DNA of 28,568 nt from a virus: the IMG/VR virus record IMGVR_UViG_3300044949_000436, positions 1 to 28,568 of that record, one strand, 5' to 3'. The notes below the pieces were generated by a model. The model did no database searches, had not been told where the DNA came from, and was given only the letters and a program-made list of their open reading frames with translations. The translations under genes were made by a program, and so were the position numbers. This document shows positions 21,025 through 23,858 of the stretch, piece by piece. The stretch's first letter is position 1. Every line of letters begins with the position of its first letter.

Positions 21025-21150
21025 TAACGTTATGCGGCTTGTAGCTGAAAGGGATTAGAAGCACAATGTTTCAACCTTGCACTACTGCCGATTAGAAGCA
21101 CAAATGACGAATGTAGCACGTCAGCCCTTTTTGCTACAAACCGCTGTTAT
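21025..21150 (+). repeat. Element A: attC-like inverted repeat
   Basis: The left arm starts TAACGTTATGCGGCTTGTAGC and runs to 21053. The right arm (21125-21150) carries GCTACAAACCGCTGTTAT, its complement apart from a 4-nt extra bulge on the left and a few mismatches. The ~70-nt loop holds a 14-bp direct repeat GATTAGAAGCACAA (21053 and 21090) and CCTTGCACTAC, also present in element D. Upstream, TATGTTGCGGCTAAC looks like the 3' end of a cassette whose body is absent. Confidence 0.72.
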
Positions 21151-21221
21151 AAGCTGGCTGCGGTTAATTAACCACTAAACTCAAATCGAAGCACTAAACA
21201 AAAGAATTAAAAAAAGAAGGG

Positions 21222-22040
21222 ATGGAAATAAATAAAATATACAACGAAAATTGCCTTGAAACAATGGCTAAAATGCCTGACAATTTCATTGACTTAACGG
21301 TTACTTCACCGCCTTATGACAATTTGAGAACATACAAGGGGTATAGTTTTGATTTTGAAAATGTGGCAAAAGAACTATGGAGAGTAACCAAACAAGGCGG
21401 TGTGATTATTTGGGTAGTTGGAGACCAAACAAAAGATGGTAGCGAAAGCGGAACATCATTTAAACAAGCACTTTATTTTAAAGAACTTGGATTTAATTTG
21501 CACGACACAATGATTTACAGAAAGCAAAACTATACACCGCTTACACATAATAGATACGAGCAGGAATGGGAATATATGTTTTGTTTTAGTAAAGGCAAGC
21601 CAAAAACATTTAACCCTATAAAAGTGCCTTGTAAATATGCAGGGCAAACAACTTGGGGACAACCAAATATGTATAAAACCAATAACGGAGAACTTACAAA
21701 AGTAAAACAGACTGTTATTAATGACGAAAAGATAAAAGGCAACATATTTGAATATTTGGTTGGAAGCACACAAACAGGCAAAATAAAACACCCTGCAATG
21801 TTTCCTGAACAATTAGCATCGGACCAAATAATAAGTTGGAGCAATGTAGGAGATTTGGTTTATGACTGCTTTTTAGGAAGCGGAACAACTGCTAAAATGA
21901 GTATTTTAAATAACAGAAACTTTATAGGTAGTGAATTATCAAAAGAGTATTATGAAATTGCTATAAATCGTATTTCAGAGTGCGGTGGGCTTTTTTTTAA
22001 TTCTTTTGAAACGGAATTGTCAAACGAAGCAGGAACGTAG
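21222..22040 (+). CDS. DNA methyltransferase (beta-class, N6A or N4C)
   Basis: 272 aa. Catalytic motif IV is TSPPY (residues 28-32) near the N-terminus and the AdoMet motif I is DCFLGSGTT (215-223) near the C-terminus, the motif order of beta-class amino-methyltransferases. HPAMFPEQL just before motif I is also typical. The target-recognition part lies between (~100-190). TSPPY occurs in both N4-cytosine and N6-adenine enzymes, so the base is unresolved. No restriction nuclease is adjacent; it probably protects phage DNA. The gene fills the first cassette: its TAG stop abuts the 3' cassette end GCAGCTTGCTTATAAC. It is visibly more AT-rich than core genes. Confidence 0.9.
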   Translation: MEINKIYNENCLETMAKMPDNFIDLTVTSPPYDNLRTYKGYSFDFENVAKELWRVTKQGGVIIWVVGDQTKDGSESGTSFKQALYFKELGFNLHDTMIYRKQNYTPLTHNRYEQEWEYMFCFSKGKPKTFNPIKVPCKYAGQTTWGQPNMYKTNNGELTKVKQTVINDEKIKGNIFEYLVGSTQTGKIKHPAMFPEQLASDQIISWSNVGDLVYDCFLGSGTTAKMSILNNRNFIGSELSKEYYEIAINRISECGGLFFNSFETELSNEAGT

Positions 22041-22050
22041 CAGCTTGCTT

Positions 22051-22313
22051 ATAACGTTTTGCAAATTGGCGTAGTACGGATTAATTAAAACAATTTACAA
22101 TGGAAGAAATAACAATTTACAAGTTTCAATTAGAAACGATTATTGAAGCCTTACGGATAACATCAAACATACATAATAGTAGTAAAGGGGTAACGTGCCA
22201 TGATAGGCAAGTAAGACAAGCGTATGAGTATGCTAAAAATGCTTTGAAAGGCGAAAAAAATACAGAAGTTCCTTATATGAAAGGATTGTAGTATTACGCC
22301 AATTTGCTGTTAT
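22051..22313 (+). repeat. Element B: attC-like repeat with a gene between its arms
   Basis: Left arm ATAACGTTTTGCAAATTGGC continues to GTAGTAC (22051-22077). The right arm GTATTACGCCAATTTGC ends TGTTAT (22291-22313). The core 17 bp match in inverted order with one mismatch. The loop contains the complete 63-aa gene, unlike the short loops of A and D. Confidence 0.72.
22100..22291 (+). CDS. Small protein nested in element B, 63 aa
   Basis: MEEITIYKFQLETIIEALRI, then a Ser/His/Cys loop (NIHNSSKGVTCHDRQ) and a helix (VRQAYEYAKNALKG). It is predicted cytosolic and mostly helical, with no known motif. The TAG stop lies at the start of the right arm of element B, so gene and repeat evolved together. 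It might be an antitoxin-like, anti-defence or cassette-borne orphan protein; none of these is shown. Confidence 0.62.
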   Translation: MEEITIYKFQLETIIEALRITSNIHNSSKGVTCHDRQVRQAYEYAKNALKGEKNTEVPYMKGL

Positions 22314-22337
22314 GGCATCGTTTTAATGTGCCATAAC
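22309..22337 (+). repeat. Gene-free micro-cassette between elements B and C
   Basis: GTTATGGCA and TGCCATAAC are perfect 9-bp inverted repeats around 11 nt. This has the same end-to-end complementarity as the gene cassettes but no room for a gene. Confidence 0.6.
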
Positions 22338-22461
22338 GGTTTCGGGCTTTGCGTTCGTTGGGGATTACCAGCACTAAAGCTCATTTGAAAAACTAAATTT
22401 AATTATATGACAGATGTTTATTTGAAAACCGAAAGCCCCAATGACGCAAAACCCGTGTTAT
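22333..22461 (+). repeat. Element C: attC-like repeat overlapping a gene start
   Basis: Left arm ATAACGGTTTCGGGCTTTGC continues through CGTTGGGG (22333-22363). The right arm CCCCAATGACGCAAAACCCG ends TGTTAT (22436-22461). The arms pair with the same 5-nt versus 1-nt asymmetry next to the AAC/GTT boxes as in B. The ATG of the second methyltransferase ORF lies in the loop. Confidence 0.7.
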
Positions 22462-23099
22462 GCGCTGTGCCTTCCAATAAAGTTTATTTAGAGGACTGCA
22501 CTGAGGCATTAAAGCGTTTTAGCGATGGGTATTTTGATATTGCAGTAGTAGACCCACCTTATGGAATTGGAGCTAACAAAATGCAACTTGGTAACGGCAA
22601 GAAGAAGATTTATAGAGGAGAAGCCGATTGGGATAACGCAATACCTACTGCTGAATATTGGGAGCAGTTGTTTAGGGTATCAAAAAATCAAATTGTTTGG
22701 GGTGGCAATTATATGACTGAATATCTGAAGCCGACAAGTGCTTGGTTATTTTGGGATAAAGGAACAGGAGAAAATGACTTTGCAGACGGTGAATTGGCTT
22801 GGACAAGCTACAATGGAGCATTACGCAAAATAACCAAGAGTTGGGTAGGTGCGAACGCAAAAGACGGCTTGGAACGAATACACCCAACGCAGAAGCCAAT
22901 TTACTTGTATGACTGGATATTTAACCGATTTGCAAAGGAAGGCAATTTGATTTTAGATACACACGTAGGAAGCGGAAGCAGTAGGATTGCAGCACACAAG
23001 AACAAGTTGCATTTTGTGGGATTTGAAATAGATAAGGGCTACTTTGAAGCGCAGGAAAAACGCTTTAATGCCGTAATTTCACAACAAACTTTATTTTAA
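22407..23099 (+). CDS. DNA adenine methyltransferase (beta-class, DPPY)
   Basis: 230 aa. Motif IV is DPPYGIG (residues 49-55), motif I is THVGSGSS (~185-192), and HPTQKP precedes motif I: a DPPY-type N6-adenine methyltransferase of beta order. The only ATG (22407) lies inside repeat element C, so residues 1-17 (MTDVYLKTESPNDAKPV) are translated repeat. The family-like part begins at about residue 20 (PSNKVYLEDCTEALKRF). The upstream element may thus donate the start codon, or a GTG at 22467 may be used. No endonuclease partner is seen; likely role is anti-restriction or regulation. Confidence 0.88.
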   Translation: MTDVYLKTESPNDAKPVLCAVPSNKVYLEDCTEALKRFSDGYFDIAVVDPPYGIGANKMQLGNGKKKIYRGEADWDNAIPTAEYWEQLFRVSKNQIVWGGNYMTEYLKPTSAWLFWDKGTGENDFADGELAWTSYNGALRKITKSWVGANAKDGLERIHPTQKPIYLYDWIFNRFAKEGNLILDTHVGSGSSRIAAHKNKLHFVGFEIDKGYFEAQEKRFNAVISQQTLF

Positions 23100-23117
23100 A
23101 ACGCTGTGGCATTGCGC

Positions 23118-23210
23118 ATAACGGTGGCAATTGGCGAAGTAAAAGCCTTGCACTACCGTTGATGTTTAGCACGATGCCCAATGGCTTTTATTTTGCCAAT
23201 TGCGTGTTAT
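23118..23210 (+). repeat. Element D: attC-like inverted repeat
   Basis: Left arm ATAACGGTGGCAATTGGC, then on to AAAAGCC (23118-23147). The right arm is GGCTTTTATTTTGCCAATTG then CGTGTTAT (23183-23210). The arms pair over ~24 bp with few mismatches. The 35-nt loop shares CCTTGCACTAC with element A, so A and D are homologous, not merely similar hairpins. Confidence 0.75.
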
Positions 23211-23259
23211 CGGCTGCCCTTCTTTCGGAATTAATATTAACAATTTAAAATAAAAACAA

Positions 23260-23823
23260 ATGTCAAAAACAAAAATTTTCTTCGACACGGAGTTTACAGG
23301 ACTTCATCAAGGCACAACACTAATTTCATTAGGTGCTATTTCAGAATGTGGTAAAACATTCTATGCTGAATTTACAGACTATGCAATTACCCAAGTGGAC
23401 GATTGGTTAAAAGAAAATGTAATTGCTAAACTGAACCATCCAAAAGGCGATGTAAGCGATTGCATAGTAACAGAAGATAGACCAAATGATATGTTGGTTT
23501 ATGGAACTACAAAAGAGATTAAGACCTATTTAGAAAAATGGCTTTCACAATTTGAAGCAGTTGAAATGTGGAGCGACTGCTTATCTTATGATTGGGTTTT
23601 ATTCTCGCAAATTTGGGAACACGCTTTTAATATCCCTAAAAATATTTACTACATACCCTTTGACATTTGCACGGTGTTTAAGATGAAATCTATTGACCCT
23701 GATGTAAGCCGTGAAAAGTTTGGGTGTGGTGAAGTCTATTCTGAAATGCCAAAACATAATGCCTTATGGGATGCAAGAGTAATTAAAATGTGTTACGAAA
23801 AGCTGATGGATGTACGTCCGTAG
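23260..23823 (+). CDS. DEDD-family 3'-5' exonuclease (exoribonuclease-like)
   Basis: 187 aa. Exo I motif FFDTEFTGL carries Asp9 and Glu11, and [11 protein letters not shown] follows, as in 3'-5' exoribonucleases of the DUF5051/Rv2179c-like kind. An Exo II-like Asp lies in SYDWVLF, and [11 protein letters not shown] (His166, Asp171) gives the DEDDh Exo III. Length fits a stand-alone domain. It may act on RNA or on short DNA. It sits in the last cassette; its TAG runs straight into GGGTTGCCGATAAC, the cassette 3' end. Confidence 0.82.
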
Positions 23824-23858
23824 GGTTGCCGATAACTCCCCGCTAAGTCTCACTCAGT

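Follow-up and report, generated by a model that had tools for sequence, protein, structure and literature searches.

A probable integron-like cassette array in a Bacteroidota-type phage and its counterparts beside a Xer-like recombinase

Integrons, among them the sedentary chromosomal integrons such as the Vibrio superintegron, consist of an integrase (IntI), an attI site and attC sites. Here we analyse a virus record of 28,568 bases (IMGVR_UViG_3300044949_000436), taken at its full length and called the window below, in which a first-pass annotation had seen an integron-like array of gene cassettes captured by a phage. That observation is confirmed, and what it describes is larger than first thought: the window very probably holds an integron-like cassette array of a Bacteroidota-type phage, for which the recombinase would be supplied in trans.

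The closest described systems are found in phages. Qi et al. (2023) reported integron components in 21 phages, including methyltransferase-carrying clusters of attC sites lacking an integrase (CALINs), one of them in Polaribacter phage P12002L; one P12002L site, attC2, was recombined with attI1 by IntI1, and the sites were read as divergent (PMC9892861). On the enzyme side, Smyshlyaev et al. (2021) described an ‘integron-like’ subgroup of simple tyrosine recombinases in which the IntI insertion is incompletely conserved, and the IntI-specific insertion is said there to be essential for integron function (PMC8138268). Very few complete integrons were recorded in Bacteroidetes by IntegronFinder 2.0, and an earlier survey recorded only In0 elements (PMC9024848).

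The arrays described here resemble integrons in their tandem cassettes with complementary ends, their single array polarity, a divergent tyrosine recombinase with attI at its side, hairpin sites that are asymmetric and fold better on one strand, and putative insertion at the attI end. The differences lie in their XerA/Xer-like recombinase, which has no IntI insertion, in a GTTA(T/G) box, in a 5/1 spacer, in wobbles or mismatches where integrons have bulges, and in phage genes that are inverted within the cassette. With the phage CALINs (PMC9892861) they share integrase-free attC-like arrays, virulent phages and methyltransferase cargo, but they reach at least 120 viral stretches, are linked to a recombinase other than IntI, contain inverted genes and differ between isolates by exactly one unit. 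Phage CALINs are therefore already known, and the present array is a variant of the integron kind, not an IntI integron. In the literature searched, which left preprints and most subscription papers outside, we found no description of the recombinase with these arrays, the site architecture, the inverted phage cassettes or their abundance.

The array in the window

Sites were located by a hairpin scan with no requirements beyond AAC, a short spacer, a stem and GTT. Pairing and spacer lengths are properties for which this search selects; complementarity between the ends of a segment was no part of its input and hence provides an independent test. Four AAC...GTT sites were found between positions 21026 and 23208, all on the + strand; they are the inverted repeats of the first-pass annotation. 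Dinucleotide shuffles of the whole window gave 0.03 hits per 28.6 kb at a score of ≥13 and 1.1 at ≥10. Site 1 (21026–21148; AAC, GTTAT, a 20-nt stem and, after the second arm, T and GTT; score 14.8), site 2 (22053–22311, with a 213-nt loop; score 16.2) and site 4 (23120–23208; score 19.4) are thus far above chance on the stem alone, and site 3 (22335–22459; score 10.4) rests also on its boxes and position. Within the window, the four sites alone share one anatomy: ATAAC or CTAAC, a spacer of 4–5 nt beginning with G, a stem of 17–21 nt followed by a loop and the second arm, a spacer of 1–2 nt, and GTTAT. Their boxes read GTTATAAGC, GTTATGGCA, GTTATGCGC and GTTATCGGC. No Rfam family matched in the window.

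The independent test is positive in three window segments, whose ends had been described as complementary over 14–16 bp: GTTATAAGCTGGCTGC and GCAGCTTGCTTATAAC match at 88% over 16 nt, GTTATGCGCTGTGCC and GGCATTGCGCATAAC at 87% over 15 nt, and GTTATCGGCTGCCCT and AGGGTTGCCGATAAC at 87% over 15 nt. With four attC-like sites, where at least two define a CALIN, and no tyrosine recombinase (PF00589) in the record, which may be a fragment, the window falls under the CALIN definition in this respect; the lack of an integrase had also been read correctly at first pass.

With units cut at AAC^G, a boundary derived in the next section, the array can be followed from left to right on the + strand. Outside it lies the left flanking phage gene for a helix-turn-helix protein (20527..20961, +), which is 97–100% identical in relatives. 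The fixed left end of the array, TTGCGGCTAAC (21018..21028, +), is near-constant in relatives, and the unit that follows it changes. Unit 1 (21029..22055, +) joins hairpin 1 to the first cassette gene, which encodes a DNA N6/N4 methyltransferase of 272 residues (21222..22040, +; PF01555, E 9.7e-40); it recurs in the viral contigs L002 and L003, and its end in L008, with a different unit after it there. Unit 2 (22056..22337, +) comprises hairpin 2 and a 29-nt end-complementary segment, GTTATGGCA...TGCCATAAC. Unit 3 (22338..23122, +) consists of hairpin 3 and the second cassette gene, for a DNA methyltransferase (N6/N4, PF01555) of 230 residues (22407..23099, +), and unit 4 (23123..23836, +) of hairpin 4 and the third, for an Rv2179c-like 3'-5' exoribonuclease of 187 residues (23260..23823, +; PF16473). 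The array closes with a fixed, attI-like right end, AAC^TCCCCGCTAAGTCTCAC (23834..23860, no strand assigned), whose boundary lies at 23836/23837 and which recurs unchanged behind the last cassette of L002, L004 and L006.

The cargo first proposed, two methyltransferases, a small protein and an exonuclease, is borne out by the family matches for the three enzymes. The small protein has to be placed differently: its open reading frame (ORF) of 63 residues (22100–22291, +), which has no family match, does not form a cassette between complementary ends but sits in the 213-nt loop of hairpin 2, and the segment between sites 2 and 3 measures only 29 nt. Nor do all genes lie between the repeats, as had been assumed, since the second methyltransferase as called begins with an ATG inside the loop of hairpin 3, the 3' arm of which would encode N-terminal residues. 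The cassette organisation as such held; what had been missed were the unit of a hairpin with its downstream gene, the boundary at AAC^G, the inversion of the genes and, in the layout of the array, the fixed attI-like end.

Exchange of whole units among related phages

The left flanking gene, at ≥97% identity, is common to six viral contigs, and the right one to seven. Relatives whose flanking DNA is 91–99% identical carry different units at the same spot, between the same ends. In L002 and L003, unit 1 of the window is kept and is followed, from ATAAC to the same right end, by different DNA; in L004/L005 and in L006, all DNA between the left CTAAC and the right AAC^TCCCCGC is replaced relative to the window. 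Single cassettes also change place: MTEQQLIDEGYK comes last in L002 and first in L004, and the MIDFTKELD cassette is found in L006 and L007 with differing neighbours. In these near-identical phages the cassettes start and end exactly at ...AAC^G and AAC^TCCCCGC.

The same is seen in cultured phages. The Flavobacterium phages of the mumin/lillamy group have complete genomes and are virulent; their plating differences on Flavobacterium LMO6 and LMO9 were suspected to stem from methyltransferase genes, and neither integron nor cassette is mentioned in the text (Nilsson et al. 2020, PMC7077304). Isolates of this group carry 6–13 sites each. When the arrays of 14 Flavobacterium phage isolates were cut into hairpins and gene segments, the step from a hairpin to the next gene was nearly fixed and the step from a gene to the next hairpin variable. 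The mobile unit is therefore a hairpin with its downstream gene, bounded at AAC^G, and the textbook order of a gene followed by its attC is excluded for phage units, as each hairpin keeps the gene that follows it. Single units distinguish isolates exactly: sniff9-1 and sniff9-2 differ by one unit of 439 bp, and mumin6-1 and mumin6-3 by one of 506 bp, each between flanks that are 100% identical, and a unit of 342 bp is present or absent between snork6-1 and snork6-2 exactly between TGCTTATAAC and the attI-like right end TACAATATTACAT. The phage attI in the isolates reads AAC^TACAATATT. Whole cassettes are thus gained, lost and reordered at the box, as in integrons; the first-pass annotation had named the absence of such events among related phages as the outcome that would overturn it.

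Such arrays are common in phages, and some have a recombinase, so the first-pass picture of an array without an integrase of its own stands for the window but not that of an isolated capture. A wider set of at least 120 viral stretches was found with one 17-base pattern; among 120 of them, 111 have at least one strong site and 73 have two or more. In the hairpin scan, P12002L itself (L042, 25000–40000) has about eight sites that follow one another in the same orientation, as against the published divergent reading; the phage encodes no integrase.

Site structure, recombinase and gene orientation

Complementary ends are the rule beyond the window: 128 of 171 distinct phage segments between consecutive sites match at 5–6 of 6 positions, compared with 8% for shuffled partners. 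Across 251 phage and 46 bacterial sites, the stem positions covary, with conserved defects at 4/5, 11 and 14. In 150 phage sites with 5/1 spacers, positions 1–3, 6–10, 12, 13, 15 and 16 pair in 90–100% with a variety of base pairs, a mismatch (G.G or C.A) is frequent at position 4 or 5, and positions 11 and 14 are G.T on the site-polarity strand in 53% and 94%, which would read C.A on the opposite strand; site polarity is defined here by the 5/1 spacers and the unit boundary. Folding is more favourable on the site-polarity strand for 93% of 60 phage sites and for 76% of the 46 bacterial ones. The box of the 150 sites is GTTA followed by T (54%) or G (31%) and does not have the RYYYAAC/GTTRRRY form. 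Classical attC sites have bulged bases, and a Vibrio site has a 5+5 spacer (PMC2727003); here the central spacer is strongly asymmetric, at 5/1, and wobbles or mismatches take the place of bulges. Judged from these features, the logic would be the same as in classical attC, with different parts.

Vaginella massiliensis came to light when bacterial genomes were searched by pattern; four of the ten matches of the first genome pattern (Limisphaerales, two Solibacter and Pedosphaera) were set aside by eye as lying outside the site family. The Vaginella chromosome carries about 18 sites in one orientation over about 40 kb (860,365–901,063), with end-complementary segments, and the array is adjoined by a gene for a tyrosine recombinase of 335 residues (901,499–902,506) transcribed away from it. 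One Vaginella cassette, encoding a protein of 208 residues, occurs in three copies (G006:C9 867340, 888104 and 897722) with differing neighbours. The same layout was found in seven further Bacteroidota genomes, with 7 sites at L097, 1 at L098, 5 at L101, 3 at L102, 2 at L103, 2 at L105 and 4 at L108. The search for such sites beside a tyrosine recombinase in Bacteroidota, proposed at first pass, was thus productive, and the suspicion that GTTAT boxes mark a distinct Bacteroidota-type site was well founded: related sites lie in Bacteroidota arrays beside a non-IntI recombinase.

At L111–L113 the sites stand on the opposite, 3' side of the recombinase, a departure from the divergent layout shared with the Treponema integrons (PMC3607928); in Treponema, however, it is the integrase gene that is turned, whereas here the phage cassette genes are turned and site polarity relative to the recombinase is kept. 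The array at L112, 3' of the recombinase, is built from a distinct site subtype whose 26-nt stems (GTTTGA AAGATTTATGCAGTAA...GGGGG) hardly vary. In a Bacteroidales contig, L027, whole operons are enclosed in end-complementary units far larger than usual cassettes, one of them 3.5 kb long and containing several genes.

At seven loci a conserved attI, approximately AAC^TC..(A/T)ATATACGCAA with a TATACG-type motif, lies between array and recombinase, 198–251 bp before the recombinase match; as in integrons, attI stands beside the recombinase and marks the array end. The IntI-specific insertion is present in IntI1 and IntI4 and absent from all aligned array recombinases, bacterial and phage. The recombinase is therefore evidence of an integron-like system and not of a standard integron missing IntI. 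The best curated model is the XerA-type NF040815 (220.1 bits, cut-off 220), ahead of TIGR02249 (193.5 bits, cut-off 265), a point of difference from the ‘integron-like’ subgroup of simple recombinases (PMC8138268), into which the array recombinases might nevertheless fall. TIGR02249 was rejected as a marker, since it responds, below cut-off, in each of the 14 control genomes; adjacency and alignment served in its place. In the recombinase tree, recombinases of divergent arrays form one clade (99/99); the position of IntI1, which has a long branch, is uncertain. A search of plasmids with IntI1, meant to broaden the range of IntI sequences, yielded IntI1 alone. A homologue of the array recombinase on Chryseobacterium plasmid NZ_CP041688 (L116) is annotated as a tyrosine recombinase/integron integrase.

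Some large phages carry the recombinase themselves. In four viral contigs picked out by a sequence pattern, of 169,658, 310,542, 76,304 and 11,928 bases, a homologue follows directly after the last cassette; 50–75 bp upstream of it, L199, L211 and L157 have AAC^T, and the boundary in L123 is AAC^G. Near some bacterial homologues of the first window methyltransferase (L238, L245, L248 and L249) similar sites were found, but no cassette shared between these genomes and phage was shown.

Gene orientation separates the two groups of arrays. In 32 of 34 bacterial end-complementary cassettes, the main ORF is opposite to site polarity, which is the textbook layout of a gene followed by attC. In phage arrays this is reversed: all 29 clear cases have the main ORF on the site-polarity strand, and the wider viral set has 81 on the same strand, 6 on the opposite strand and 19 too short to tell. 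Since the unit is a hairpin with its downstream gene, the genes of phage cassettes point the opposite way to those of textbook and bacterial ones. In the large phages, the sites are oriented to the recombinase as they are in bacteria, and the genes alone are turned. In 54 of 116 phage cassettes, including that of the second window methyltransferase, the ORF starts inside the hairpin, so that the site would double as gene leader and the second arm would encode N-terminal residues.

Proposed mechanism and competing explanations

For the mobile unit we propose the structure [G + 4-6 nt spacer + hairpin + GTTNNNNNN + gene + N'N'N'N'N'N'AAC], with entry and exit at AAC^G. In single-stranded phage DNA, the site-polarity strand, which is the coding strand of the phage genes, would fold into the hairpin. 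A Xer/XerA-like tyrosine recombinase, provided by an array on the host chromosome or by a large phage infecting the same cell, would then recombine this hairpin with a second one or with the attI-like end of the phage (AAC^T). The variable right end of the array would be explained if units enter at the right-hand attI, and the inversion of phage genes would make them readable by rightward phage transcription, with the hairpin loop often supplying the start codon and an AT-rich leader. Protection against host restriction is the probable role of the cargo, DNA methyltransferases and a nuclease.

Several observations weigh against this scheme. Neither the window phage nor the Flavobacterium isolates encode a tyrosine recombinase, several recombinase homologues (L096, L104 and L110) have no array on the DNA available, and the predicted empty site of the window phage, GCNGCTAACTCCCCGCTAAGTC, which the first-pass annotation had suggested looking for, found no match in viral contigs. 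The 5-nt spacer varies between otherwise identical unit copies, being GTTAT at window site 1 (21029–21033) and GTTTT in L002, GTGAT or GGTTT before the MTEQQ cassette (L002 versus L004), and GTTCG or GTTCC between isolates (L036/L037). The six bases after GTT also differ for one gene, cassette G24, where they are ATAGGC or AACCGC by isolate (L031/L032 versus L040), and end-complementarity is broken in the copies with ATAGGC. Such spacer and box differences count because simple whole-unit exchange leaves them unexplained; it may be that some bases at the junction are left behind or rewritten when units recombine. Homologous recombination, finally, could also move existing units.

Taken as a full account, with the hairpins serving as short homologies between phages and no site-specific recombinase acting on phage DNA, homologous recombination is improbable. 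The missing recombinase gene, the motifs shared by hairpins and the exchanges that fall within similar regions would suit it. The breakpoints, however, lie at AAC^G, outside the conserved stem, and where exchange takes place at the right end, AAC becomes linked to a fixed flank of unrelated sequence. The two ends of a segment, moreover, complement each other within a unit but show no relation to those of other units, and a dedicated recombinase adjoins the sites in bacteria and large phages.

A standard CALIN, in which IntI-type attC cassettes were captured and the integrase lost, is very improbable. Phage CALINs with methyltransferases have been published, the P12002L attC2 site recombined with attI1 under IntI1 (PMC9892861), and the run of sites in that phage is similar in form; but the recombinases linked to the sites have no IntI insertion, boxes of GTTA(T/G) rather than GTTRRRY, 5/1 spacers and wobbles replacing bulged extra-helical bases set the sites apart, and the phage genes are inverted. 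Transcription terminators or a non-mobile family of intergenic palindromes, although GC-containing intergenic stems might halt transcription and weak terminators have been suspected in attC sites (PMC9892861), are already refuted by whole units exactly present or absent in otherwise identical phages, and fit neither the end-complementarity nor the long AT-rich loops with start codons nor the asymmetric conserved spacers.

Site-specific exchange of cassettes by a Xer-like recombinase thus remains the preferred reading. In its widest form, on which we are evenly divided, a second integron system based on a Xer/XerA-type recombinase without the IntI domain would exist across Bacteroidota, parallel to classical integrons; phages would keep a separate pool of inverted cassettes with the hairpin as 5' leader, small phages retaining array and attI and borrowing the recombinase, and large phages carrying the whole device. 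The findings suggest that many Bacteroidota integrons have been overlooked because their recombinase does not have the domain used to recognise IntI. If this is true, cassette capture is possible without the IntI-specific insertion, and phages own a dedicated route for trading anti-restriction genes, visible cassette by cassette between isolates. The inverted phage cassettes raise the question of how the recombining and the transcribed strand are coordinated, and cultured phage–host pairs exist for this system (Flavobacterium LMO6/LMO9).

Outside the array, the window carries a PAPS-reductase-like gene (14054–14950, −), and a similar-looking protein (SGGETSAFMAQW) is encoded within a cassette of a 170-kb phage contig (L123:2721-3578).

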